Shown here: piece after piece, positions 2,710 through 28,712 of the stretch
Numbering within the stretch: position 1 is the stretch's first letter
Layout of the letters: every line of letters starts with the position of its first letter
Origin: Aequorivita aquimaris
GTDB lineage: Bacteria > Bacteroidota > Bacteroidia > Flavobacteriales > Flavobacteriaceae
NCBI RefSeq assembly: GCF_001573155.1
Contig: NZ_JRWG01000002.1
Location: 310,001 to 374,000, forward strand
Reading direction: 5' to 3'
DNA: 64,000 nucleotides
Notes under the pieces: model-generated
What the model was told of the DNA's origin: nothing
The model's input: only the letters and a program-made list of their open reading frames with translations
Databases searched by the model: none
Translations under genes and position numbers: made by a program

Positions 2710-3732
2710 TTAATCCTCGTTTTCAATTTTTTTATCAACTTCAGCGCTTTCTTCTTCGTATTGCGTTTTTTCTGTTCTTGCGTCGTAGCCTAATTCTTCC
2801 CTTAAATATTTCGCAAAAATATCCGTATAACCGTGCGTTGCGATTACCTTTTCGCAGCCCGTGGCATCAATTGCCGAAAGCAAACCTTCCCAATCGGCGT
2901 GGTCGCTCAAAACGAAGCCGCGGTCAATTGCGCGTCTTCTTCGCGCGCCACGAAAGGTCATCCAGCCGCTGGCGGAAGCGGTAACGTACGGCACAAAACG
3001 TCTAATCCACGTACTGCCGTGGGCGCTCGGTGGGGCGACGATTATATTTCCCTTTATTTCTTCTTTGGAAGTATCGCGCGTTATTAAAGTAGTTTTGGGT
3101 AGTTTATAATTTTCCCTAACTACTTCCGTCATATTTTCAACGGCGCCGTGGGTGTATATTTTTCCGATGGAAGTGTCCAAATGTTTCAGCAAACGCTGTG
3201 CTTTCCCCAAGCTGTAACCGAAAAGAATTGAGGTTCTGCCTTCACTCTTGTTGGTTGCCCACCATTCGTTTATATCCTTAAAAACTTCCGTTTGCGGCTC
3301 CCATTTAAATGCTGGTAAACCGAAAGTACACTCCGTAATAAACGTGTGGCATTTTACGGGTTCGTAAACCTCAGCTAAGCCATCATCTTCGGTTTTGAAA
3401 TCACCCGTAAAAACCCAGACTTCCCCTTTATATTCCACGCGAACTTGAGAAGAAGCAATAATATGACCCGCGGGATGCAGTGAAAATTTCACTCCATTTA
3501 TAGTAAATGTCTCGTTCCAAGCTTTGCCTGTTACTGAAATTTCGCCCAAACGATGTTTAATTATGGGAACATTATTGGTGTGTGTAATGTATTGTTTATG
3601 TCCCCACCGGCTGTGATCGGCGTGGCCGTGGGTAACGATGCACTTATCTACGGGCCGCCAAGCATCGATATAAACATCGGCTTTTTGGCAGTAAATGCCC
3701 TTCTCGTTAAAGACCAGTAGTGGTTGCTTCAT
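2710..3732 (-). CDS. Ligase-associated DNA damage response exonuclease (MBL/beta-CASP fold)
   Basis: Predicted metal-dependent nuclease of 340 residues with a metallo-beta-lactamase fold. The metal site is THGHADHS (His35, His37, Asp39, His40); further conserved pieces are HPAGHI, VFTGDFK and SDHADWEGL near the C-terminus. It resembles the SNM1/Artemis class. It is the first gene of the exonuclease-ligase-helicase operon, with three bases between its stop and the ligase start. Family members are annotated as putative DNA exonucleases on the strength of this linkage. The C-terminal 20 residues are acidic and variable. ATG at 3732. Confidence 0.93.
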   Translation of the reverse strand: MKQPLLVFNEKGIYCQKADVYIDAWRPVDKCIVTHGHADHSRWGHKQYITHTNNVPIIKHRLGEISVTGKAWNETFTINGVKFSLHPAGHIIASSQVRVEYKGEVWVFTGDFKTEDDGLAEVYEPVKCHTFITECTFGLPAFKWEPQTEVFKDINEWWATNKSEGRTSILFGYSLGKAQRLLKHLDTSIGKIYTHGAVENMTEVVRENYKLPKTTLITRDTSKEEIKGNIIVAPPSAHGSTWIRRFVPYVTASASGWMTFRGARRRRAIDRGFVLSDHADWEGLLSAIDATGCEKVIATHGYTDIFAKYLREELGYDARTEKTQYEEESAEVDKKIENED

Positions 3733-3882
3733 TTATTTCTTTTCAATAGCAGTTTAAAAATAAGGTTTTGGGCTGATTTTTCTTTCCAATTAAGAAAAGT
3801 TTAGGGTGAATGGCCTTTAAAAATTATTGAAAAAACTTGGGCAGATTGCTTCCCATTGCTCGCAATTGTCGTTAACAAGTTT

Positions 3883-3890
3883 TATATTTG
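3883..3890 (+). promoter_or_regulatory. Bacteroidota -7 element (TATATTTG) before the TerB-like gene
   Basis: TATATTTG matches the TAnnTTTG -7 consensus of the Bacteroidota primary sigma factor and lies 20 bases before the ATG at 3911. A -33 TTG at the ideal distance is not obvious; the nearest are at 3856-3858 and 3866-3868. Confidence 0.5.
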
Positions 3891-3910
3891 TAGCTTAAAC
3901 AAACCAAATT

Positions 3911-4336
3911 ATGTCATTTACAGATTTATTCGAAAGCGGGGAACATACCCGAAATTTGGGGCACTTTGCTTCTATAGCAAATATGGCGTCCATAGATGGG
4001 GAATTGAACCCAGAAGAGGAAAAAATGTTGAAGCGTTTTGCGCGCAAATTGGATATTGATGAAGATGAATATACTGCCGTTTTAAAGAATCCGGGGAAAT
4101 ATCCGATAAATCCGCCAAACTCTTCCGAAAGACGATTGGAACGTATGCACGATTTGTTTCAAATTATTTTTGCCGATCACGAGATTGATGACCACGAGCG
4201 TTTCTTGATTGAGAAATACGCCATCGGGCTTGGCTTTACCGCAGAGATTGCACAGGATTTAATAAAAAGATCGATTGCAATCTATAGTGGAGGATTAAGC
4301 TTTGAAGATTATCGATATCTGCTGAATAGAAAATAA
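3911..4336 (+). CDS. TerB-like helical protein
   Basis: Small cytoplasmic protein of 141 residues with the all-helical TerB/DjlA-N type fold. The recognisable part is HFASIANMASIDGELNPEE (residues 19-37) followed by EEKMLKRFARKLDID and a second acidic helix pair around FADHEIDDHERFLIEKYA. TerB domains often carry acidic metal-binding motifs. Despite the family name there is no evidence for tellurite resistance: no other ter gene is nearby. The gene stands alone and is followed by a strong bidirectional terminator shared with the converging fbp gene. The physiological role is unknown. Confidence 0.8.
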   Translation: MSFTDLFESGEHTRNLGHFASIANMASIDGELNPEEEKMLKRFARKLDIDEDEYTAVLKNPGKYPINPPNSSERRLERMHDLFQIIFADHEIDDHERFLIEKYAIGLGFTAEIAQDLIKRSIAIYSGGLSFEDYRYLLNRK

Positions 4337-4376
4337 GAGTCCTAACTCCCGAAAGGGAACTATTTCTCAAACACAA

Positions 4377-4404
4377 AAAAAAGCTCCACAAATGGAGCTT
4401 TTTT
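4377..4404. terminator. Bidirectional rho-independent terminator between TerB-like gene and fbp
   Basis: Perfect stem: six A, GCTCCA, loop CAAA, TGGAGC, six T. It lies between two converging genes and has an A-run on one side and a T-run on the other, so it can serve both strands. Confidence 0.93.
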
Positions 4405-4437
4405 GTTATTTACATTTTTGGAAATTCTCCTCTGAAG

Positions 4438-5442
4438 TTAAGTGGCTTTCATAAATTCCTCCGCCTTTTCGACCATTTTTGTACTTCCGCAGAAAAAAGG
4501 AACTCGCTGGTGCAAGGTGGTGGGTTTAATTTCGAGTATTCTCTCAAAACCGTTACTGGCCTTTCCACCGGCCTGTTCTGCAATCATTGCCATAGGGTTG
4601 CACTCATACAGCAGCCTAAGTTTTCCGTTCGGGTCTTTTGAAGTGTTAGGATAAATATAGATTCCTCCCTTTATCATATTCCGGTGAAAATCGGAAACCA
4701 AAGAACCTATATATCGCGAGGTGTACGGACGGTCATCCTCCTCTTTCTGGCAGTATTTAATGTAATCTTTCACGCCCTGCGGAAAGTGTACGTAATTGCC
4801 TTCGTTTACCGAATAAATTTTTCCATTTTCTGGAAATTTCATATTAGGGTGCGAAAGATAGTAGGTGCCAATAGCAGGATTCAAAGTAAAACCATTAACG
4901 CCGTGGCCCGTGGTGTAAACAATCATTGTGGAAGTGCCGTAAACTATATACCCAGCAGCTACTTGATTTATGCCGGGTTGAAGAAAATCCTCAATGGTTA
5001 CGGGAGTTCCCGAAGGTGTAATTCTTCTGAAAATAGAAAAAATAGTTCCTACGGAAACATTCACGTCTATGTTTGAAGAACCATCTAACGGATCCATCAA
5101 CACCACATATTTATTGTCGTTCTTTTCGTTTCGGCCTTTTATGGTGATAAAATCGTCCTCTTCCTCGCTGGCAATTCCGCAAACAATTTCACGATTAGTG
5201 AGCGTATTTATAAAAACTTCATTTGCAAAAACATCCAACTTTTGTTGATCCTCGCCCTGTATATTGCTGTTTCCCGCGGTTCCCAAAATATCGACCAATC
5301 CGGCTTTGTTAACTTTGTGGTTTACCACTTTTGCCGCCAGACGGATGGAATTGATTAATCGCGAAAGTTCGCCTGAAGAGTATTTGAACTCGCTTTGGTT
5401 TTCAATTATAAACTCGCCGAGGGATTGATTTATTTTTGCCAT
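4438..5442 (-). CDS. fbp: Fructose-1,6-bisphosphatase, class I
   Basis: Hydrolyses fructose 1,6-bisphosphate to fructose 6-phosphate, the committed step of gluconeogenesis. 334 residues, the usual class I length. The metal/substrate site is [11 protein letters not shown] (residues 116-126) with the preceding acidic ASEEED (91-96). The ATG at 5442 (MAKINQSLG) is chosen over an upstream in-frame start at 5616. The extra 58 residues of that longer frame are low-complexity Phe/Asp/Asn, merely the antisense of a GAAATC repeat, and would overlap the divergent GNAT gene. Transcribed divergently from the GNAT gene. Confidence 0.96.
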
Positions 5443-5577: not shown

Positions 5578-6060
5578 ATGAAAATTAGAGAAGCCGTTAA
5601 AGAAGATATGCCGCAAGTTTTGGAACTCATAAAAGAGCTTGCCGTTTTTGAAAAAGAACCCGATGCGGTTGAAATTTCAGTGGCAGATTTGGAGCGCGAA
5701 GGTTTTGGTAAAAATCCACTGTTTACGTGCTTTGTTGCAGAATCGGAAAATGGAATTGTTGGCGCAGCTTTGATATATTTTCGTTTTTCAACCTGGAAAG
5801 GGCGCACCCTCCATTTGGAAGATTTAATCGTACAGGAATCCGAACGGGGCAAAGGCATTGGCGAAGCGCTTTACAAAGAAGTCATGCAGTTTGCCTATGA
5901 CCGCGGTCTAAAGCGCGTGGCTTGGGATGTTTTGGATTGGAACAAGGGCGCAATTCGTTTTTATGAGCGCAGCGGTGCCGATATTTTAAAGACTTGGCGC
6001 GTAGTACATATGGACGAAAAGGGACTAAAAAATTATATTGAAAAATCAAATGTAAAATAA
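5578..6060 (+). CDS. GNAT family N-acetyltransferase
   Basis: Cytoplasmic acetyl-CoA-dependent N-acetyltransferase of 160 residues, close to the spermidine/diamine acetyltransferase type. The acetyl-CoA loop is RGKGIG (residues 90-95), preceded by the beta strand LEDLIVQ and followed by [14 protein letters not shown] with the usual late-motif Tyr129. The ATG at 5578 gives the normal N-terminus [18 protein letters not shown] longer in-frame start at 5395 would add a Glu/Ile repeat translated from the hexamer tract and is rejected. The substrate cannot be read from sequence. Confidence 0.9.
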
Positions 6061-6065
6061 ATTTG

Positions 6066-6115
6066 ACCACGAATACACGAATAAATTTTTATAATAACAT
6101 TCGTGTATTCGTGGT
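6066..6115. repeat. Intergenic palindrome, CACGAATACACGAAT family, copy 1
   Basis: Perfect 17-bp inverted repeat: left arm ACCACGAATACACGAAT at 6066-6082, right arm its exact complement at 6099-6115, loop 16 bases. It starts just after the GNAT stop and ends 18 bases before the aspartate kinase ATG. A near-identical palindrome lies at 12770-12817 and a decayed one at 53926-53942, which points to a dispersed repeat. It has no T-run, so it is not a typical terminator. Confidence 0.92.
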
Positions 6116-6133
6116 AAGCTTTTTATTTATGAA

Positions 6134-7396
6134 ATGCCTATGAAAATATTCAAATTTGGCGGAGCGTCCACAAAAGATGCCGAAAGCGTTAAAAATGTAG
6201 TTTCCGTTATTGCGCAAACGGGGGAAAAAGATCTGGTAATAATTATTTCCGCGATGGGAAAAACCACCAATGCCTTGGAAGAGGTGGTCCAGGCATACTT
6301 TTCTGAAACGGGCGACGTAAAAAACGCCTTGCATTCCGTATATGATTTTCACTATAAAATTCTCACGGGTCTATTTTCGGCTACCTCGCATCCTGCCTTT
6401 GCTGAATTGGACAAGACCTTTAAAGAACTGAAGCGTTTTTTGGAAACCAATAAATCCAAAAACCATGCTTTTGTTTATGACCAAGTTGTTTCCTTCGGCG
6501 AAATTATTTCTTCAAAAATAGTTTCAGCATATTTTTCCGAAAACGGAATCAAAAATACCTGGCTGGATGTGCGACAGTGCATAAAGACCGATGCCAACTA
6601 TCGCGATGCAAACGTGGCTTGGGAAAAGACGCAAAAGAAAATTTCAGATAAAGTCAGCCCCAAAGGAATAACCGTAACCCAAGGTTTTTTGGGCGCCGAG
6701 GACAGCAATAATTTTACCACCACGCTCGGTCGCGAAGGCAGTGATTACACGGCGGCAATTTTTGCATACTGCCTAAATGCCGAAAATGTTACCATTTGGA
6801 AAGACGTTCCCGGGGTATTGAATGCCGATCCGCGCTATTTTACCCAAACCCAATTGTTGAACCACATAAGCTACCGCGAGGCGATTGAACTTGCATTTTA
6901 CGGTGCTTCGGTAATACACCCAAAAACGCTGCAGCCATTGCAGCGCAAGGAAATTCCACTTTTTGTGAAATCATTTTTAAACCCAACCGCTCCCGGAACC
7001 TGCGTGGGCAAGGGCGTTACGCTCGATCCGCAGACTTCGTGTTTTATTTTGAAAAAGGGTTTGGTGCTCATTTCACTGTCGTCATTGGACTTTTCATTTA
7101 TGATGGAAGACAATATTGGCGACGTTTTTAAATGGCTTCATAAGTATAAAATGAAAGTTGAAATGATCCAAAACTCAGCCATCAGTTTTTCGGTGTGTGT
7201 GAACGACAAATTCAACAATTTGGAGGAATTGCTAGCAAAGCTTCGCGAAAAGTTCAGCGTAAAATGGAACGAAAACGTGACGCTTTACACCATCCGCCAT
7301 TTTAACCCTGCTGAGGTAAAGACACTTGCAGAAAATAAAAACGTGCTTTTAAAGCAGGAAAGTAAGGAGACGGTGCAGTTGGTTATTAAGGAATAG
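6134..7396 (+). CDS. lysC: Aspartate kinase (monofunctional)
   Basis: Phosphorylates aspartate to 4-phospho-L-aspartate, the first step toward lysine/diaminopimelate, threonine and methionine. 420 residues. The nucleotide-binding start KFGGAS is at residues 7-12, and the catalytic segment TTTLGREGSDYTA with KDVPGVLNADPR lies in the middle. The C-terminal region (about 300-410) is a regulatory ACT-like tandem. There is no fused homoserine dehydrogenase. Two ATGs, at 6134 and 6140, are possible starts; the second (MKIFKFGG) is equally good. It lies between the GNAT gene and the OlsF-like gene on the same strand. Confidence 0.93.
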   Translation: MPMKIFKFGGASTKDAESVKNVVSVIAQTGEKDLVIIISAMGKTTNALEEVVQAYFSETGDVKNALHSVYDFHYKILTGLFSATSHPAFAELDKTFKELKRFLETNKSKNHAFVYDQVVSFGEIISSKIVSAYFSENGIKNTWLDVRQCIKTDANYRDANVAWEKTQKKISDKVSPKGITVTQGFLGAEDSNNFTTTLGREGSDYTAAIFAYCLNAENVTIWKDVPGVLNADPRYFTQTQLLNHISYREAIELAFYGASVIHPKTLQPLQRKEIPLFVKSFLNPTAPGTCVGKGVTLDPQTSCFILKKGLVLISLSSLDFSFMMEDNIGDVFKWLHKYKMKVEMIQNSAISFSVCVNDKFNNLEELLAKLREKFSVKWNENVTLYTIRHFNPAEVKTLAENKNVLLKQESKETVQLVIKE

Positions 7397-7412
7397 TATC
7401 GTTTGCATTCGT

Positions 7413-7420
7413 TATATTTG
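7413..7420 (+). promoter_or_regulatory. Bacteroidota -7 element (TATATTTG) before the OlsF-like gene
   Basis: TATATTTG fits TAnnTTTG and lies 26 bases before the ATG at 7447. No well-spaced -33 TTG is visible, so the call rests on the -7 element only. Confidence 0.5.
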
Positions 7421-7446
7421 TTGAACACAAACAACCAAAATATTTC

Positions 7447-9297
7447 ATGGGATTAGTCAATGCTAAGGAAGTTGCAAAAGCAATAAACGTCGATAAATTT
7501 GGCTTTCTGGGCACTTTTATGGGCTGGTCATTGATGAAGGTTTTAAACATTACCACCCTCAACAAAATTTACGACAAAAAAAAGCATTTAAAAGATCTCG
7601 ATTTTATCAATGCACTTATTGAGGAGTTTGAAATCAAGTTTGAAATTCCGGAGGAAGACCTGCGAAGAATACCAAAAACAGGAGCTTTTATAACTATTTC
7701 AAACCACCCATTGGGCGGAATTGACGGAATTCTTCTTTTAAAATTACTGCTGGAGCATCGTCCCGATTTCAAAATTGTTGCCAATTTTCTCTTGCATCGT
7801 ATTGAACCACTGAAACCCTATGTAATGCCCGTAAATCCTTTTGAGGAGAGAAAGGATGTAAAATCGAGTATTATCGGTTTTAAATCTGCGCTGAAACATT
7901 TGCAGGAAGGCCACCCCTTGGGAATTTTCCCCGCAGGGGAAGTTTCAACGTACAGAGACGGAAAATTATTGGTTGACAAGCCTTGGGAAGAAGCCGCGAT
8001 GAAATTGGTAAAAAAAGCCGAAATACCCGTGGTGCCTATCTATTTTCACGCTAAGAACAGCAAGCTTTTCTATCATTTGGCCAAAATGAGCGACACCCTG
8101 CGCACTGCCAAATTGCCTTCGGAACTGCTCACGCAGAAAGAGCGCCTGATAAAAGTTAGGATTGGGAACGCTATTTCTATGGAAGACCAAAAAGAACACG
8201 AGGCACTGCCTGTGTTTACCGAATTTCTTCGGAAGAAGACATATATGCTTTCCAATGCATTTCAAAAGAAAAAGTTATTGGACAACATTCCGAAGACCTT
8301 GAAATTCCCGAAACCGCCGAAGAAAATTGCCGGACCCATTCCGCTAAAAGCGATGGAAGCAGAAATAGAAAAGCTTCGGCAGGACGACAAACGTCTCCTT
8401 ATCAGCAAAAATTATGAGGTTTTTTTGGCGCGTGCCAATACCATTCCCTATATACTTCAAGAAATAGGAAGGCTACGTGAAATCACCTTCCGCGAAGTTG
8501 GCGAGGGTACTAATAACAGCACCGATCTCGATAAGTTTGACAGCTACTACCACCATATGTTTTTGTGGGACAACGATGCCCAGAAAATGGCCGGAGCTTA
8601 CCGGATGGGGCTCGGTTCGGAGATTTTTCCGCGCTTTGGGATCAATGGTTTTTATCTGCAGGATCTGTTTCGTTTCGAGCCCGAACTGTATGAAATGATG
8701 AGCAAATCCATCGAGATGGGCCGTGCTTTCATCATAAAGGAATACCAACAGCGACCCATGCCGCTTTTTCTTCTTTGGAAAGGAATTGTCCACACTACCC
8801 TGCGCTATCCCGAACACCGTTATTTAATTGGCGGTGTGAGCATCAGCAACAAGTTTTCGGAATTCTCAAAAAGTTTGATGATAGAGTTTATGAAATCGAA
8901 TTATTACGATCCGTATGTGGCGCAATACATCAACCCAAAGAAGGAATACAAGGTAAAACTGAAAGATGCTGACAAGGATTTCATATTTGACGAAAGCGAG
9001 GCCGACCTCAATAAATTCGATAAAATAATTGACGAAGTGGAGCCGGGAAGCCTCAGGTTGCCGGTACTTATCAAAAAATATATCAAACAGAATGCAAAGG
9101 TTGTGGCCTTTAACGTAGATCCCCTTTTCAACAATGCGGTGGACGGTTTGATGTACATCCGAATAGCAGACTTGCCCGAAAGTACGGTAAAGCCTGTGAT
9201 GGAGGAATTTCAGGCAGAGCTTGAAAAGAAATATTCAGATAAAAATGGCGATGGTGCCGATACGGAAACTTCAAACGAAAAAGTAAATCCTGATTAA
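7447..9297 (+). CDS. olsF: Two-domain acyltransferase (PlsC-like + GNAT-like), OlsF/GlsF type
   Basis: 616-residue fusion of two acyltransferases. The N-terminal domain (about 60-300) is a PlsC-type O-acyltransferase: catalytic NHPLGGID (residues 86-93) and FPAGEVS (161-167). The C-terminal domain (about 310-570) resembles OlsB/hemolysin-type N-acyltransferases (GAYRMGLGSEIF, then FELGR-like SIEMGRAFI). Established knowledge: OlsF proteins of this architecture in Serratia and Flavobacterium make ornithine lipids by doing both acylations, and separate GlsB/GlsA homologues make glycine lipids in Bacteroides. The likely role is therefore synthesis of an amino-acid-containing membrane lipid. The amino acid (ornithine or glycine) is not readable. 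The last 20 residues are hydrophilic. A DUF5995 gene follows. Confidence 0.87.
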   Translation: MGLVNAKEVAKAINVDKFGFLGTFMGWSLMKVLNITTLNKIYDKKKHLKDLDFINALIEEFEIKFEIPEEDLRRIPKTGAFITISNHPLGGIDGILLLKLLLEHRPDFKIVANFLLHRIEPLKPYVMPVNPFEERKDVKSSIIGFKSALKHLQEGHPLGIFPAGEVSTYRDGKLLVDKPWEEAAMKLVKKAEIPVVPIYFHAKNSKLFYHLAKMSDTLRTAKLPSELLTQKERLIKVRIGNAISMEDQKEHEALPVFTEFLRKKTYMLSNAFQKKKLLDNIPKTLKFPKPPKKIAGPIPLKAMEAEIEKLRQDDKRLLISKNYEVFLARANTIPYILQEIGRLREITFREVGEGTNNSTDLDKFDSYYHHMFLWDNDAQKMAGAYRMGLGSEIFPRFGINGFYLQDLFRFEPELYEMMSKSIEMGRAFIIKEYQQRPMPLFLLWKGIVHTTLRYPEHRYLIGGVSISNKFSEFSKSLMIEFMKSNYYDPYVAQYINPKKEYKVKLKDADKDFIFDESEADLNKFDKIIDEVEPGSLRLPVLIKKYIKQNAKVVAFNVDPLFNNAVDGLMYIRIADLPESTVKPVMEEFQAELEKKYSDKNGDGADTETSNEKVNPD

Positions 9298-9319
9298 TCC
9301 ATTATAAAATTTGTTCGAT

Positions 9320-10075
9320 ATGGCTGCAAAAACTATTGATGAGGTTATAGCGCGATTGGACAACATTATCGAATTGGAATGTGCCAATAGTTCCTGTATG
9401 GCCTATTTCCCCATACTTTACAGAAAAGTTACCGTTCGCATCAAAGAGGGGATTCTCAACAATGAATTCGAAAACAACCCGCGCATGGAAAAGCTGGACG
9501 TGCTCTTCGCGAACAGATATATTGAGGCTTACGAATGTTTAGGCAATAATAAACCTTTTACTAAAAGTTGGAAAAAAGCCTTTGAAGCTGCAAAAAAGGG
9601 AAATTTGTTGATTATGCAGCATCTGCTGTTGGGCATCAATGCGCATATCAATCTGGATTTGGGAATTGCCGTTGCAGAAACCGTGGGCGATGATGGCGAG
9701 TTGATGGATTTTGAGAACGATTTCAATAAAATAAATGCTATTCTCGGTTCAATGATCGCAGATGTGGAAGCCAAGATTATTTCGGTATCGCCCTTGTTCG
9801 GTTTGTTGGATAGGTTTGGAAAAGGTCGTGAGGACAAGCTGGTTAGTTTCAGTATAAATGTAGCACGGGACGGCGCATGGCTTTTCGCCAACCAGTATCA
9901 TTTTTCGCACAACAAAAACGAAGAACTAAAAACCCGTGATACTATAATTGCAACGCTTGCCGACAAATTAATCCATCAAAAAAGCTGGGTTTTAAAATAT
10001 TTGGTAAAAACCATTTATTTCTTTGAAAAGAAAGATGTGCCCCAAATTGTAGCAGTACTTAAGCAGGAGAATTAG
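9320..10075 (+). CDS. DUF5995 family protein
   Basis: 251-residue soluble, mostly helical protein of the DUF5995 type. The conserved part is a segment with GINAHINLDLGIAVAE and a helix rich in hydrophobics near LFGLLDRFG. The ATG at 9320 (MAAKTIDEV) is preferred to a TTG at 9311. The gene begins 22 bases after the OlsF-like stop on the same strand, so it is probably co-transcribed. The His/Asn/Asp in HINLDLG could form a polar site, but no catalytic function is established. Nothing visible indicates secretion. Confidence 0.8.
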   Translation: MAAKTIDEVIARLDNIIELECANSSCMAYFPILYRKVTVRIKEGILNNEFENNPRMEKLDVLFANRYIEAYECLGNNKPFTKSWKKAFEAAKKGNLLIMQHLLLGINAHINLDLGIAVAETVGDDGELMDFENDFNKINAILGSMIADVEAKIISVSPLFGLLDRFGKGREDKLVSFSINVARDGAWLFANQYHFSHNKNEELKTRDTIIATLADKLIHQKSWVLKYLVKTIYFFEKKDVPQIVAVLKQEN

Positions 10076-24357: not shown

Positions 24358-25389
24358 CTATATAACCTCTTCCACTTTCGATACCACTGTTTCAGGTGGT
24401 ATCGTATTCATCACTAACTCATAATTGGGAGGATATTTAATGCCGTAAATGGATGTTGGAATTAATGGATATTTTTTTCTGTCAGCCATTAATTGATTGC
24501 TTTCCGGCTGATTAAAAGGGACAAATCCCGCATAAGGGTGCGTGACGCCCCAAAGCGTAACAACCGGCACCCCATACATAGCCGCCAAATGGCCGTTGCC
24601 GCTATCCATGGAAAGCATTAGATCCAGATTTGAAATCAGCGCGAGTTCTTCCTCAAAAGTGAGTTTTCCGGCCACATTGGTAACGTTGGCGAAAGGCTTT
24701 TCAAGTTGTTGAAGTTGCTTTATTTCCTTCTTTCCGCCACCAAAAAGAAATATACGGTATTTGTCGGTTTTATCCAATTCGCGGATTACTTCAGCCATTA
24801 AGCTTAAAGGATACATTTTGCTTTGATGGGCGGCAAAGGGAGCAATGCCGATGAGTTTTTTTGGTTCTACGCCAATCAGGCCATTGAGTTTTGGCGTCAA
24901 CCGTTTTTGGGGCGGGACGGTAAATGTGTTTAAATCTAAAGGAAAACCGAGCTTTTCAAAAACATCTGCATAGCGTTGATGTGTAGTTTTTAATTGTGAA
25001 ATATTTTCGCCTTTGGCAGCAATCAAGGCTTTCTTTTCCGCTCTGCCTTTATCAATAGTTGCGGTTTCAATTCCCTTAAACTTTAAATATTTCGTTATTA
25101 TTTTGGAACGAATTACGTTGTGAAGGTCTGCTACGGCGTCAATTCCCAAATCCTTTGCTTGGTTTGCCAATTTAATCAATCCGAAGCGTTTGTGTTCGCC
25201 ATATACATCAGCTTCCAAAAAATCGAGGTTGGGAATTTCTTCAAAAAAAGGTTTGAAAAATGGGCGGGAAAGCACCGTAATTTTTAGTTCGGGATAGGTT
25301 TGCGCCAAAACGCGAAGTACGGGAACGGTCATTGCCACATCTCCCATGGCGGAGAGGCGGATTACCAGTATGTGGGTGGGTTTTGGCAT
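24358..25389 (-). CDS. Glycosyltransferase family 9 (heptosyltransferase-like)
   Basis: 343-residue GT-B glycosyltransferase of the ADP-heptose:LPS family. N-terminal ILVIRLSAMGDVAMTVPVLR is the hallmark start; the C-terminal nucleotide-sugar site has the GGGKKE, SMDSGNGHLAAMYGVPVVTLWG and HPYAGF segments. It is cytoplasmic, probably acting on a lipid A core sugar. It follows DUF4254 on the same strand, with a perfect palindrome between them. The exact donor and acceptor are unknown. Confidence 0.9.
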   Translation of the reverse strand: MPKPTHILVIRLSAMGDVAMTVPVLRVLAQTYPELKITVLSRPFFKPFFEEIPNLDFLEADVYGEHKRFGLIKLANQAKDLGIDAVADLHNVIRSKIITKYLKFKGIETATIDKGRAEKKALIAAKGENISQLKTTHQRYADVFEKLGFPLDLNTFTVPPQKRLTPKLNGLIGVEPKKLIGIAPFAAHQSKMYPLSLMAEVIRELDKTDKYRIFLFGGGKKEIKQLQQLEKPFANVTNVAGKLTFEEELALISNLDLMLSMDSGNGHLAAMYGVPVVTLWGVTHPYAGFVPFNQPESNQLMADRKKYPLIPTSIYGIKYPPNYELVMNTIPPETVVSKVEEVI

Positions 25390-25400
25390 TTTATTTCTAA

Positions 25401-25433
25401 AAACCTAACAGGTTTTCAAAACCTGTTAGGTTT
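25401..25433. repeat. Perfect palindrome AAACCTAACAGGTTTT between DUF4254 and GT9 genes
   Basis: Two exact 16-bp complementary arms (25401-25416 and 25418-25433) around a single C. It lies in the 53-base gap between the DUF4254 stop and the GT9 start, both minus strand. Such a one-base loop would force a cruciform or a slightly opened hairpin. Confidence 0.92.
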
Positions 25434-25442
25434 AAAATAATA

Positions 25443-26051
25443 TTATTTCTTTCCGCGAAGCACCGGGTTTAGCTCGTCGTCGTTGTACATTTTCATCTGC
25501 TTATAGACTTTCATATACTTTCTGCCGTGGGCAATATCATCCAACAATTGATTGATGGCGGTGCTTAAATCCACGCGTTGCTCCAAAAGCACGTTCAATT
25601 TTGCTTTACAAGCCATTTGGTGCTCTTGGGAAGCATCGGTTCGGGTAGCCTCTTCGTTCATATGATAGATTTTCAGTGCCAAAATTGAAAGCCTGTCAAT
25701 GCCCCACGCGGGACTTTCGGTGTTGATGGTCGCATCGTCCTTCACTTTTACGTCCTTGAATTTTTCAAGGAAATAGCTGTCAATGTATTCCACCATATCG
25801 GTGCGGTCCTGATTGGAAGCGTCTATTTGTCGCTTGAGTTTCAGTGCTGCAACGGGGTCAATATTCGGGTCGCGGATGATGTCTTCATAATGCCATTGCA
25901 CCGTGTCTATCCAGCATTTGCGATACAGCAAATGTTCTAAAAGTTCTGAATCCTTGTCGTACGGATTGCTGAAGGCTTGGTCCACAGTGTTTATCTCGTG
26001 GTACTTATTTATAACTTCTGCGAAGATTTTGTTGGCTTTGTCTGAGAACAT
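25443..26051 (-). CDS. DUF4254 family protein
   Basis: 202-residue soluble, helical protein. Recognisable parts are LLYRKCWIDTVQWHYEDIIRDP (about 47-68), the Asn/Gln-rich IDASNQDRTDMVEYID and AWGIDRLSILALKIYHM. It is typically encoded next to a GT9 gene in Bacteroidota, as here; the linkage hints at LPS or glycan metabolism, but the function is unknown. The C-terminal 25 residues are charged. Confidence 0.87.
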   Translation of the reverse strand: MFSDKANKIFAEVINKYHEINTVDQAFSNPYDKDSELLEHLLYRKCWIDTVQWHYEDIIRDPNIDPVAALKLKRQIDASNQDRTDMVEYIDSYFLEKFKDVKVKDDATINTESPAWGIDRLSILALKIYHMNEEATRTDASQEHQMACKAKLNVLLEQRVDLSTAINQLLDDIAHGRKYMKVYKQMKMYNDDELNPVLRGKK

Positions 26052-26088
26052 TATCTATTGTTTATTGTTATTTTTTATTTGTGTCTTT

Positions 26089-26122
26089 GGCTCCGCTCAG
26101 ACACCGATCATTGAGCGGAGCC
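26089..26122. repeat. Palindromic element GGCTCCGCTCA at the 3' end of the methyltransferase gene
   Basis: Perfect 11-bp arms (26089-26099 and 26112-26122) with a 12-base loop. The methyltransferase stop codon (26108-26110) lies in the loop, so the last residues (HFGSAQ) are encoded by the palindrome. The sequence type (GGCTCCGCTCA...TGAGCGGAGCC) resembles a dispersed element I recall from many flavobacterial genomes (from memory, not checked). Confidence 0.88.
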
Positions 26123-27121
26123 GAAATGCTTTTCTAAAATGTGCAAATACTCAAAAGTTTCGGTGGCTTTGTGGTTTCGGTTTTCGGTTTTATCTGCTTT
26201 AAAACGTTGGTATTTTTTGGTTTTCAACGTGTATTTCCCGAAACGCTCCATTACCCTTTGCACTTCCTTTTGGCCCATCAATCCTTCGTTGTTGTAACTC
26301 AGAAAAATGTATGGAAACTGTGCATTTTCAATCAATTCCTCAAAACTTTTAAGGACTTCCCCGGTCCTGCACCAATCACTTTTATAATAATCGCGCAGGC
26401 CGGTTTTGCCCTTAGGTACAAAGGTATCATATTTTGCGATAGTATTCAGTAAATGATAATTGGCGCCATATTGCCTTGCGTTGTAGGGCGGGTCCAGATA
26501 GAGAATATCGCCTTTAATTTTCTTTATAAGCACATTGCTGTCCTGTTGAAATACTTGATGCGAATTTTCCGTTTGCTGAAAAACAGCGGGTTTTACGACA
26601 AGTTTTTTTGCTGCGGAAGCCTTTATGTGTTTTAAATAAGCGCCATAAACCGAAGCCGTGTTCGCAACCTTATCGGCACTTTCCAAAAGTGAAGCGAGCA
26701 AAAAGAAATACTGGTCTTCCGTGATCTTTGAGGTTTTTTTCCAAGCTTCAATTTGAATCCGAATCGCATCAATTTTCTGTCCGTTATCTAAAGTAAAATA
26801 GTTTCTTCCAGCTTTTCCTCCTTCGGAATAATTTTCAAAAATGAAGCCTTTTTTTCCGCTCAGCGAATTCAATTCATTTATGAATTCTTCGTAATCAAAA
26901 GCAATATGATTACCGATGTAGTTTCGGTTCAGCACATAGCTGTAATATTCCACATCATTGGCTATCACTTGTTTTACGTGTGGTTTAAAGTTTCTGCCTA
27001 CGATTCCAGTTCCTGCAAAAAGGTCGCAAAATGTTTTTTGCGAAAGGTCATTTCCGCAGGTTTCGGTTACCGTTTCAAAAATGAAGGAGGAGAGTTTGTG
27101 TTTGGAGCCTATGTAATTCAT
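26108..27121 (-). CDS. N6-adenine DNA methyltransferase, D12 class
   Basis: 337-residue SAM-dependent methyltransferase of the Dam/D12 class. The SAM-binding motif is FCDLFAGTGIVG (residues 31-42) and the catalytic motif DPPYN (210-214). The order of motifs is the alpha type of Dam, DpnII and FokI enzymes. The N-terminal MNYIGSKHKLSSFI is characteristic of this subgroup. The ATG overlaps the stop of the upstream nuclease-like gene (ATGA at 27118-27121), so the two form a coupled pair, most likely a type II restriction-modification system. The target cannot be predicted from sequence. The stop codon is inside a palindromic repeat. Confidence 0.92.
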   Translation of the reverse strand: MNYIGSKHKLSSFIFETVTETCGNDLSQKTFCDLFAGTGIVGRNFKPHVKQVIANDVEYYSYVLNRNYIGNHIAFDYEEFINELNSLSGKKGFIFENYSEGGKAGRNYFTLDNGQKIDAIRIQIEAWKKTSKITEDQYFFLLASLLESADKVANTASVYGAYLKHIKASAAKKLVVKPAVFQQTENSHQVFQQDSNVLIKKIKGDILYLDPPYNARQYGANYHLLNTIAKYDTFVPKGKTGLRDYYKSDWCRTGEVLKSFEELIENAQFPYIFLSYNNEGLMGQKEVQRVMERFGKYTLKTKKYQRFKADKTENRNHKATETFEYLHILEKHFGSAQ

Positions 27122-27762
27122 TTGGAAACCCAGATAATATCGCTTAAAGTTTGCTGTCCGTCAACAAAAGTAAATGATTGCAACTGTTCCGGCCGGAAAG
27201 TAGCAATATATTTTTGAATAGCATTTTTTAGCAAACCGATTTCAGCCTTCAATTTCCAATGTTCGCCATTTTCAGTATAAACCACAATGAATAGACGGTT
27301 TTTGAAATGGTGCCGCTTTTGGGCGCTTTGATTTTTGTAGAGCCATTCTATCAATTCATTTTTATGATTTTGGGCGTATTCAAAGGTTTTGTTGAAGTGT
27401 TTTGGAAAGACGGAGGTTTTATGGTCAAAGGGAATTCCGAAGAGATAAAAATCCTTTTCGGAATCTTTGGTTTGGGCTACCATTTTTATATTTTCAGTTT
27501 CAGAAAAAATATGTTCCACCGCCACGGCGCTCCAGAAATTGTACCAGCGATTGGCGGCGTAATTGAACAAACTTCGTTTATCGAGTTTATGTTCTGCAAT
27601 TGCCTGCTTCATTCTCAAAATTAACTCCGCCCACTCCTGTGTGCTGTAAATAAAGTTGGTATAGCGGTCCCATTTATCATTTTGCTTTTGGCCCCAACTG
27701 TAATGGTACGGAAGCCTGCGCATTAGTTCTTTTTCAATATTTTCGAGATTCACCGCAATCAT
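27118..27762 (-). CDS. PD-(D/E)XK nuclease-like protein, putative restriction endonuclease
   Basis: 214 residues, not recognised as a named family. The segment DFYLFGIPFDHKTS holds Asp104, Asp113 and Lys115 in a D-x8-D-x-K spacing that fits the PD-(D/E)XK nuclease core, followed by a strand (RLFIVVYT, about 160) and helix as in that fold. An N-terminal helix carries NYAANRWYNFWSAVAVEHIF with Glu83, where a first metal ligand is often found. It overlaps the methyltransferase start by four bases, and its own ATG overlaps the DUF6427 stop by four (ATGA at 27759-27762). A longer start at 27801 would lie inside DUF6427. It could also be a non-restriction partner of an orphan methylase. Confidence 0.7.
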   Translation of the reverse strand: MIAVNLENIEKELMRRLPYHYSWGQKQNDKWDRYTNFIYSTQEWAELILRMKQAIAEHKLDKRSLFNYAANRWYNFWSAVAVEHIFSETENIKMVAQTKDSEKDFYLFGIPFDHKTSVFPKHFNKTFEYAQNHKNELIEWLYKNQSAQKRHHFKNRLFIVVYTENGEHWKLKAEIGLLKNAIQKYIATFRPEQLQSFTFVDGQQTLSDIIWVSK

Positions 27763-28712
27763 AAAAACAGAAATACAAACGGCAAAATCACAACCAACCA
27801 CAGCATGATTTCCTTAAACCAAAATTCGGCCATATCCTTTTCCCGATATTGTTCCTTTTCGGGGCTTTCAATATAATTGGCACTTACTATCGCAACGGGC
27901 GCCATAATAAAAAACAGCTCAGCCCCAGTCTTTTCAGGAGCTCCCAGTGCTATGAACAGAGTGGTAAAACTTACATACAGCAGCAAAAGGTGGTTGGGTC
28001 TTTCCTTTAACGACAACTTCGAGATTCTTAAAATTCGATATACAGCGGTCCAAATATAAAATGCGAGTATAATGGTGACGGGAACCAAAATGGCAGCCGA
28101 ATTATAGGCTGAAAAGTCAAAACCAACCTCATCCTTCCAGTTCAAAAACCAGGAAAACGTATCGGTTGCAAGCATTTGGTACGCTGTATTTATGACAAAA
28201 ACCGCCAAAAATCCCGTGATGGGAACCAGCATTTGTTTATAGGTAGAATTGGGCTTCTGCACGATGGCAATCCACAGTGGAACGAAGAGTAATAGACTCC
28301 AAAAATAAAACAGGGAAGCCAGGGTAATCCAAATGCTGGCGTCGAGAATTTTTTTTTCTGAATTCTTATCGCTTCGCAAACTCATCAAGCGGCGCAAAGC
28401 CAACAAAAGGAAGGCGTTTGCCAATATTATTTTATGCTGAAGAAATATTACCGGCAACATGGTAAGAAAACAGGTGAAGAAAAATATGGCGTAGGTATTG
28501 TTTTGGGTGAGATGGTTTTTTCTGATTATAAAATCCAACAGCAACATAATCAGCACGCTGAAAATGACGAAAGCAGAATGGGTAAGCAAGAGGGAAGGCG
28601 TGATAAATATTTCGCTGTGCGATATTGCACCCAATAAATAACCTGCAATTATAAAAACACCGAGAATTAAATAGTTAATGGGGTTAGATTTTCCAAAAAA
28701 GCTTGTCAGCAT
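27759..28712 (-). CDS. DUF6427 family polytopic membrane protein
   Basis: 317 residues with around nine predicted transmembrane helices spread over the whole length (e.g. MLTSFFGKSNPINYLILGVF at the start, a C-terminal LWLVVILPFVFLFL). Seen in Bacteroidota next to purD and DUF6341. Possible role in lipid or glycan handling is unproven. It is the upstream gene of the nuclease/methyltransferase pair, with a four-base overlap. Divergent from the DUF6341 gene. Confidence 0.85.
   Translation of the reverse strand: MLTSFFGKSNPINYLILGVFIIAGYLLGAISHSEIFITPSLLLTHSAFVIFSVLIMLLLDFIIRKNHLTQNNTYAIFFFTCFLTMLPVIFLQHKIILANAFLLLALRRLMSLRSDKNSEKKILDASIWITLASLFYFWSLLLFVPLWIAIVQKPNSTYKQMLVPITGFLAVFVINTAYQMLATDTFSWFLNWKDEVGFDFSAYNSAAILVPVTIILAFYIWTAVYRILRISKLSLKERPNHLLLLYVSFTTLFIALGAPEKTGAELFFIMAPVAIVSANYIESPEKEQYREKDMAEFWFKEIMLWLVVILPFVFLFL

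Follow-up and report, generated by a model that had tools for sequence, protein, structure and literature searches.

NlaIII, FatI, and CviAII make up the CATG group of Type IIP restriction enzymes with 4-bp palindromic sites, FatI being an enzyme of Flavobacterium aquatile with the site CATG. Restriction-modification (R-M) systems are usually regarded as mobile and short-lived. For orthodox Type II systems, which consist of a separate nuclease and methyltransferase (MTase), site avoidance is reported in about 50% of 1,774 cases (PMC4687349), so that avoidance is not obligatory for Type II systems, and the same paper describes traces of site avoidance left behind by lost R-M systems. Here, we analyzed a stretch of 64,000 nucleotides from Aequorivita aquimaris (the window), in which the gene of a putative restriction endonuclease adjoins that of a D12-class adenine MTase. 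According to our analysis, the pair is likely to be an orthodox, old, CATG-specific Type II R-M system, a reading that draws on the observed structure of the genes, the conservation of their motifs, their co-occurrence, their shared locus, and the depletion of CATG in carriers. Among the best-ranked matches in the open-licence literature, no paper dealt with CATG methylation in Flavobacteriaceae or with this locus.

The two genes occupy the middle of a four-gene row, outside of which lie PurD and a family-9 glycosyltransferase (Table 1). Both open reading frames, both ATGA overlaps, and the residues D, D, and K at positions 104, 113, and 115 of the nuclease are all present where an earlier note, made from the sequence alone, had placed them, and its assignment of the MTase to the D12 class was borne out by the PF02086 match. 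The length of 214 amino acids (aa) is counted from an ATG codon, while the mechanical list of open reading frames begins 13 codons upstream, at a GTG. Among 54 syntenic loci, the overlap of the nuclease and MTase genes is exactly ATGA in 39 and TTGA, likewise of 4 bases, in 1, and it is broken by inserts in 14. This exact overlap recurs, and 25 of the 28 Aequorivita genomes have the nuclease gene complete, which argues that its reading frame is not due to chance. Since the nuclease is read first and the start of the MTase overlaps its stop, the two are probably translated together; such an order would be risky on entry into a naive host and would fit residence, not mobility.

Table 1 Features of the window and of related loci discussed in the text
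Feature	Position	Strand	Basis or remark
DUF6427 gene	27759-28712	-	PF19992 1.2e-9 and synteny; left boundary of the shared locus
Putative CATG-specific restriction endonuclease, 214 aa	27118-27762	-	Divergent PD-(D/E)XK motif D104-x8-D113-x-K115
D12-class N6-adenine DNA methyltransferase, 337 aa	26108-27121	-	PF02086 6.9e-52; PADLOC MTase_II 3.8e-140; DPPY at residues 210-213
DUF4254 gene	25443-26051	-	PF14063 8.7e-66 and synteny; right boundary of the shared locus
ATGA overlap, nuclease/MTase	27118-27121	-	Conserved; insert site in relatives
ATGA overlap, DUF6427/nuclease	27759-27762	-	Exactly ATGA
Interval of the window lacking CATG	25349-27803		2.45 kb, both R-M genes
Loci with inserts at the nuclease/MTase junction			L030, L031, L033, L045, L047, L051, L052, L088, L090, L106, L107, L112-L114
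Epilithonimonas L119, genes between nuclease and MTase	6718-9385		Not at the shared locus
A. echinoideorum L052, insert	5592-8220
G121, contig C4, repeated nuclease end	771294-774127
L315 (IMGVR_UViG_3300018080_007253), nuclease and MTase	3396-4996		Classed as viral
L150, nuclease homologue	5929-6540		IMG/VR
L151, nuclease homologue	5938-6585		IMG/VR
Priestia megaterium pFDU301A, nuclease homologue (L070)	7917-8636		240 aa, motif intact

A scan of bacterial and archaeal genomes gave 292 pattern matches, among them 162 relatives, and 79 loci were kept. The triad D...(D/E)-x-K that is expected of a PD-(D/E)XK nuclease is conserved in this family: D104, D113, and K115 are invariant in 26/26 full-length copies from the genus (25 genomes, one counted twice) and, together with F105, P120, N155, R156, and F158, in 69/69 aligned sequences as well as in all 14 members of a set picked for divergence, which reaches down to 25% identity; the three sets overlap, the window being a row in each and seven loci being common to the sets of 69 and 14. 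The residues singled out by the earlier note thus hold across the aligned homologues. Its remark that it recognized no named restriction family for the 214-residue protein agrees with our searches, as no significant match was found in Pfam, NCBIfam, PADLOC, or the sequences of the PDB. With the window nuclease as the query, Pfam and PADLOC gave no match at an E value of ≤1, NCBIfam gave one match only (0.11), and the PDB sequences gave 16 matches at an E value of ≤10 (best 0.063, sensor kinases), none of them significant; the profile of the 69-sequence alignment gave no match at an E value of ≤10. Pfam searched with the 14 divergent sequences matched six families at an E value of ≤0.1, by one member each, among them a poxvirus polymerase domain (0.0014, the best), RE_MjaI (0.046), and CdiA_C (0.061), and PADLOC searched with the 69 aligned sequences matched Unk_02 (1.1e-4) and Cas6f (0.0091), again by one member each.

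The structure prediction that the earlier note had called for, carried out with AlphaFold2 on the 69-sequence alignment, returned a confident model of the window nuclease (pLDDT 92.6, pTM 0.89) that is compatible with a nuclease fold. It has a mixed helix/strand core with a long helix (residues 62 to 88) and a hairpin of strands 105 to 107 and 110 to 118 bearing the motif, downstream of which follow helices 127 to 132 and 134 to 143 and then strand 156 to 162, adjoining N155/R156. Foldseek found no match in the PDB at an E value of ≤0.001, the best values being 0.04 for the whole model and 0.38 for the core. The weak matches of the whole model include EcoO109I, CdiA-CT, BstEII, Card1, Can2, 3ndh, and Cfr10I among unrelated proteins; judged by their titles, about 15 of the 50 matches listed are presumably PD-(D/E)XK enzymes, and glycogen phosphorylases, TRiC, and other unrelated proteins make up much of the remainder. 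With VIA-align, the whole model reached a Z score of ≤4.5 (best for PNPase, which takes the top rows). A model of the core only (residues 55 to 214, pLDDT 89.2) gave fold matches that are no clearer, namely, CdiA-CT, McrC, a homing endonuclease, a VRR-NUC domain, and influenza PA, with a Z score of ≤3.8 (best for CdiA-CT), many of the rows being entries of one protein, influenza PA. We take EcoO109I, 3ndh, Bse634I, CdiA-CT, Card1, McrC, and the other nucleases among the listed matches to belong to the PD-(D/E)XK fold class. The invariant motif and a confident model whose weak matches include many nucleases support, rather than prove, the fit to PD-(D/E)XK proposed in the earlier note, and the 214-aa protein is accordingly deemed a putative divergent member of this class.

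Within Aequorivita, the nuclease was matched in 26 of 28 genomes, in 25 of them at full length, and the MTase was matched in the same 26. In one of these genomes (G011), the nuclease is reduced to residues 171 to 214 and the MTase is kept; this lineage lost the nuclease and retained the MTase, the order in which an R-M system can be lost without harm. Two genomes (G015 and G023) have neither gene and show about 320 bp between DUF6427 and DUF4254; their position within the genus, next to L048 (support 0.93), makes a loss of the pair probable. When we surveyed the DUF6427-DUF4254 intervals of other genomes, as the earlier note had proposed, the pair was found there in many genera of Flavobacteriaceae, several of them marine, the same row of DUF6427, nuclease, MTase, and DUF4254 being present in Mesonia, Salegentibacter, Patiriisocius, Ulvibacter, Planktosalinus, Marinirhabdus, Halomarinibacterium, Haloflavibacter, Leeuwenhoekiella, and Dokdonia, and it was absent in four others, where the interval measures about 60 to 140 bp (three genera) and 725 bp (one genus). 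Epilithonimonas and Chryseobacterium have the pair at another site, and in Lutibacter, DUF4254 follows the pair in two of four loci. The distribution of the nuclease in the family is patchy, with matches in 29 of 397 evenly drawn genomes and 20 of 237 genera, the matches in two of the 29 genomes being weak (E values of 4e-8 and 2e-6).

In trees of the nuclease, the MTase, and the flanking genes (FastTree; 47 of the 54 syntenic loci), 16 of the 44 flank splits are shared with each of the nuclease and MTase trees, and the groups above the species level common to the trees include the Ulvibacter pair and Marinirhabdus with UBA1903. Of the 27 flank splits with a support of ≥0.9, supported splits of the nuclease tree contradict 10 and those of the MTase tree contradict 12, for which reason strict vertical inheritance was rejected as the whole account. 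The nuclease tree places A. echinoideorum (L052) outside Aequorivita, and A. todarodis (L031) has a nuclease 92% identical to that of the window and a DUF6427 protein 74% identical. The shared groups, taken with the conflicts between trees, point to residence with homologous exchange. The suggestion of the earlier note that the system is long settled is supported by the locus shared among many genera and by the avoidance of CATG described below; the possible host regulation that it also raised found no support.

The inserts that break the overlap of the two genes measure 215 to 2,994 bp; elsewhere in the row, more than 200 bp were found before the nuclease in 1 of 51 loci and after the MTase in 3 of 52. 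The 14 inserts are not independent events, as L030, L031, and L033 group together, and so do L112 to L114, L106 with L107, and L088 with L090. Several of the inserts at the junction hold toxin-antitoxin genes, and one holds a second R-M system. Pfam identified UPF0175 with DUF3368 in L030, DUF6364 with a PIN domain in L047, and DUF433 with DUF5615 in L051. In the Epilithonimonas locus L119, a C5-cytosine methylase and a MutH/Sau3AI-like nuclease are located between the nuclease and the MTase, and the insert of A. echinoideorum L052 reads like that of L119, the copy on which Pfam was run. The inserts of the remaining loci showed no clear gene. The first 49 nt of the MTase gene are repeated upstream of the insert in L030, L031, and L033 (90 to 94% identical to those of the window), so that the insert left both genes whole. 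In G121, the MTase is immediately preceded by a repeated C-terminal fragment of the nuclease (residues 183 to 213), which follows the intact nuclease at a distance of about 1.1 kb and points to an insertion by which the nuclease end was duplicated.

CATG has the lowest mean observed/expected ratio among the 4- to 7-bp palindromes tested in four Aequorivita carriers (0.44; range, 0.30 to 0.52), and CTAG, GATC, CCGG, and TCGA are also low. The window contains 74 CATG compared with 203.6 in dinucleotide shuffles, and CTAG is as low as CATG (0.475 versus 0.477). The interval that spans both R-M genes is free of CATG, where about 2.8 would be expected at the density of the window, possibly by chance. 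The three genomes lacking an intact pair (G011, G015, and G023) are as poor in CATG as the carriers (0.38 to 0.45). In view of the place of G015 and G023 beside L048 within the genus, we read this scarcity as the trace of a lost system; it counts against a simple rule of presence and absence and fits the traces of lost systems described in PMC4687349.

Outside Aequorivita, the CATG observed/expected ratio has a median of 0.41 to 0.42 (range, 0.24 to 0.58) in 10 carriers from 8 genera and of 0.85 (0.57 to 1.02) in 11 non-carriers, the lowest non-carrier being G032 (0.57). The carriers, 10 of 26 in other genera, were picked for long contigs with known coordinates, not randomly; 14 non-carriers were fetched, of which G077 (2,500 bp) and G079 (1,016 bp) were dropped as too short, and G037, from another family (CATG 0.97), was excluded from the P value. 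We used 40 kb per carrier and 20 to 40 kb per non-carrier. Among 1,208 motifs, CATG is the best separator of carriers and non-carriers, with a P value of 1.7e-4 that is uncorrected and ignores phylogeny and that amounts to 0.2 when multiplied by the 1,208 motifs; no other four-base palindrome has a P value of <0.04. Kinship with Aequorivita does not explain the split, since non-carriers close to it are high (G080, PurD 79% identical, CATG 0.86; G034, 75%, 0.95) and the more distant carriers G211, G154, G120, and G335 (PurD 66 to 72%) are low (0.36 to 0.50). Nine pooled carrier loci, eight from Epilithonimonas, Chryseobacterium, or Weeksellaceae and the other from Flavobacteriaceae bacterium PS02293, hold 41 CATG where 244 would be expected, a ratio lower than that of any other among 16 palindromes (GGCC follows at 0.37), and the Lutibacter loci hold 69 of 116 expected, the second lowest palindrome. 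The nuclease-bearing Gracilibacteria locus L128 shows no CATG depletion (41/39), and in the Anaerolineae nuclease loci, four other palindromes are lower than CATG.

The site avoidance expected of an orthodox Type II system is thus seen for CATG, a site deduced from the same data, and CATG is probably the target. That several palindromes are depleted in Aequorivita, CATG also in members without the pair, and that the carrier test ignores phylogeny would suit a real Type II R-M system with another target, the scarcity of CATG resulting from shared ancestry or from a different system. We consider this unlikely, because the split tracks carriage of the pair and not closeness to Aequorivita, because the depletion recurs in the Epilithonimonas and Chryseobacterium loci, and because CATG is totally absent from the sampled part of a Priestia replicon described below.

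The DPPY motif of the MTase is invariant in 9/9 sequences, and separate, adjacent nuclease and MTase genes with an intact MTase motif are features expected of an orthodox Type II system. Among 22 genomes outside the genus, an MTase like that of the window is present in 10/10 nuclease carriers and 0/12 non-carriers, the two genes lying about 31 kb apart in G154. Plasmids and viral-classed contigs also carry relatives of the MTase. Homologues of the nuclease with a longer chain directly adjoin other MTases: the neighbor is a PF01555 protein in L057, the second nuclease copy of A. echinoideorum G026, as well as in L152, an IMG/VR record, and a divergent PF02086 protein in L147 to L149; such pairing with different MTases is as expected of restriction enzymes. 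The genome of L135 has a 62.5% identical MTase on another contig (L158). No recognizable MTase was detected near other relatives, e.g., L117, L128, L131, L136, and L139 to L144, and a D12 MTase was not found in 5 of 18 genomes searched, all five being, judged by their titles, metagenome-assembled genomes (MAGs). These relatives and the nuclease's want of a family model or significant fold match could be taken to mean that the MTase is a solitary host methylase and that the 214-aa protein is not a restriction enzyme and has some other role. This we regard as very improbable in view of the invariant motif of catalytic type, the pairing with different MTases, and the avoidance of CATG, a behavior reported in PMC4687349 for Type II systems whose nuclease and MTase are separate.

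L142, L144, and L146 (Thermoflexales, Anaerolineae, and Chloroflexi MAGs) each carry a nuclease homologue with no MTase close by, at a seemingly conserved site flanked by a class-V aminotransferase and a mannosyltransferase-like gene; the Pfam search covered both neighbors in L142 and the downstream one in L144. The genomes of L142 and L144 yielded no D12 MTase. In the viral-classed L315, a nuclease (47%) lies beside an MTase (55%), and the pair may therefore also travel. The nuclease homologues of L150 and L151 contain 7 and 8 in-frame TGA codons, respectively, in the stretches read, possibly with TGA as a sense codon; no D12 MTase was found in these records, and CATG, GATC, CCGG, and GGCC are all at zero in about 12.5 kb.

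The sole match of the nuclease in the plasmid collection is located on the circular replicon pFDU301A of Priestia megaterium (NZ_CP045273.1; 1,081,311 bp). A search of this record found no MTase like that of the window; a Dam-like PF02086 protein is encoded about 350 kb from the nuclease homologue, and a marginal PF01555 match (26.6 bits) lies about 500 kb from it. The 650,000 bp sampled contain not one CATG versus 1,514 expected, the next rarest tetranucleotide being CGCG with 178 occurrences, and two sister plasmids of the same strain have 168/172 and 165/187 CATG in 50-kb stretches. The zero count is the sharpest single support for CATG as the target, and it suggests that the carrier protects itself by having no sites. 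pFDU301A encodes its own beta and beta' subunits of RNA polymerase as well as DNA polymerase III alpha and an NAD ligase, and it has PHROG matches; no PF03237 terminase was found in the record, no tRNA in 250 kb, and no rRNA match in 100 kb, and the replicon may be a plasmid or a giant phage. We find it plausible, without favoring it, that the family is a CATG-specific lineage with two modes, acting as a long-resident R-M system in Bacteroidota and, without a cognate methylase, in the Priestia megabase replicon (possibly also in phages), where the erasure of CATG would protect the replicon and the enzyme would destroy only foreign or host DNA. The second possible MTase of pFDU301A makes this two-mode reading slightly less likely.

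From the patterns described, we infer cleavage and methylation by an orthodox Type II system, and with them the cut position, the modified base, and CATG as the target. The D12 MTase would methylate adenine, presumably the A of CATG on both strands, and so protect the sites of the host, and the 214-aa protein, a metal-dependent PD-(D/E)XK nuclease as judged from its motif and model, would cut unmethylated CATG in incoming DNA. The system would have been resident for a long time, inherited for the most part together with its locus but also exchanged through homologous recombination and at times lost, as the nuclease was in G011 and both genes probably were in G015 and G023, and its long residence would leave CATG scarce in the chromosome. 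A pair that has stayed at a single housekeeping locus across several genera, and whose probable site has worn away from their genomes and even from those of relatives that later lost the pair, offers a natural experiment on the time over which a chromosome is shaped by restriction, and the proposed CATG target makes a nuclease family without a model directly testable. The absence of CATG from the sampled 650 kb of pFDU301A points to self-protection by site erasure instead of methylation. Beyond the earlier note, our analysis adds the probable target, the argument for age, the patchy distribution at a shared locus, and an unusual relative without this methylase.

Since the proposed target is the same and the source of FatI is a flavobacterium, the nuclease could be a FatI homologue and, apart from its distribution, already known; we regard this as possible though somewhat doubtful, and it would be compatible with an old CATG-specific system. 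The MTase resembles the D12-class enzymes of PF02086, matching profile positions 1 to 241 of 253 with the motif DPPY, and nothing notable differs. The nuclease is like the PD-(D/E)XK superfamily in that its model bears D-x8-D-x-K on a beta hairpin, with a long helix before it and further helices and a strand behind it, and differs from it in having no significant structural match by Foldseek or VIA. With the Type IIP systems of the NlaIII, FatI, and CviAII type, the pair shares side-by-side genes for a nuclease and an adenine MTase and the avoidance in its hosts of the presumed CATG site. It differs from them in that its nuclease has neither a significant family model nor a significant PDB sequence match and in that the pair is found at one chromosomal locus across genera.
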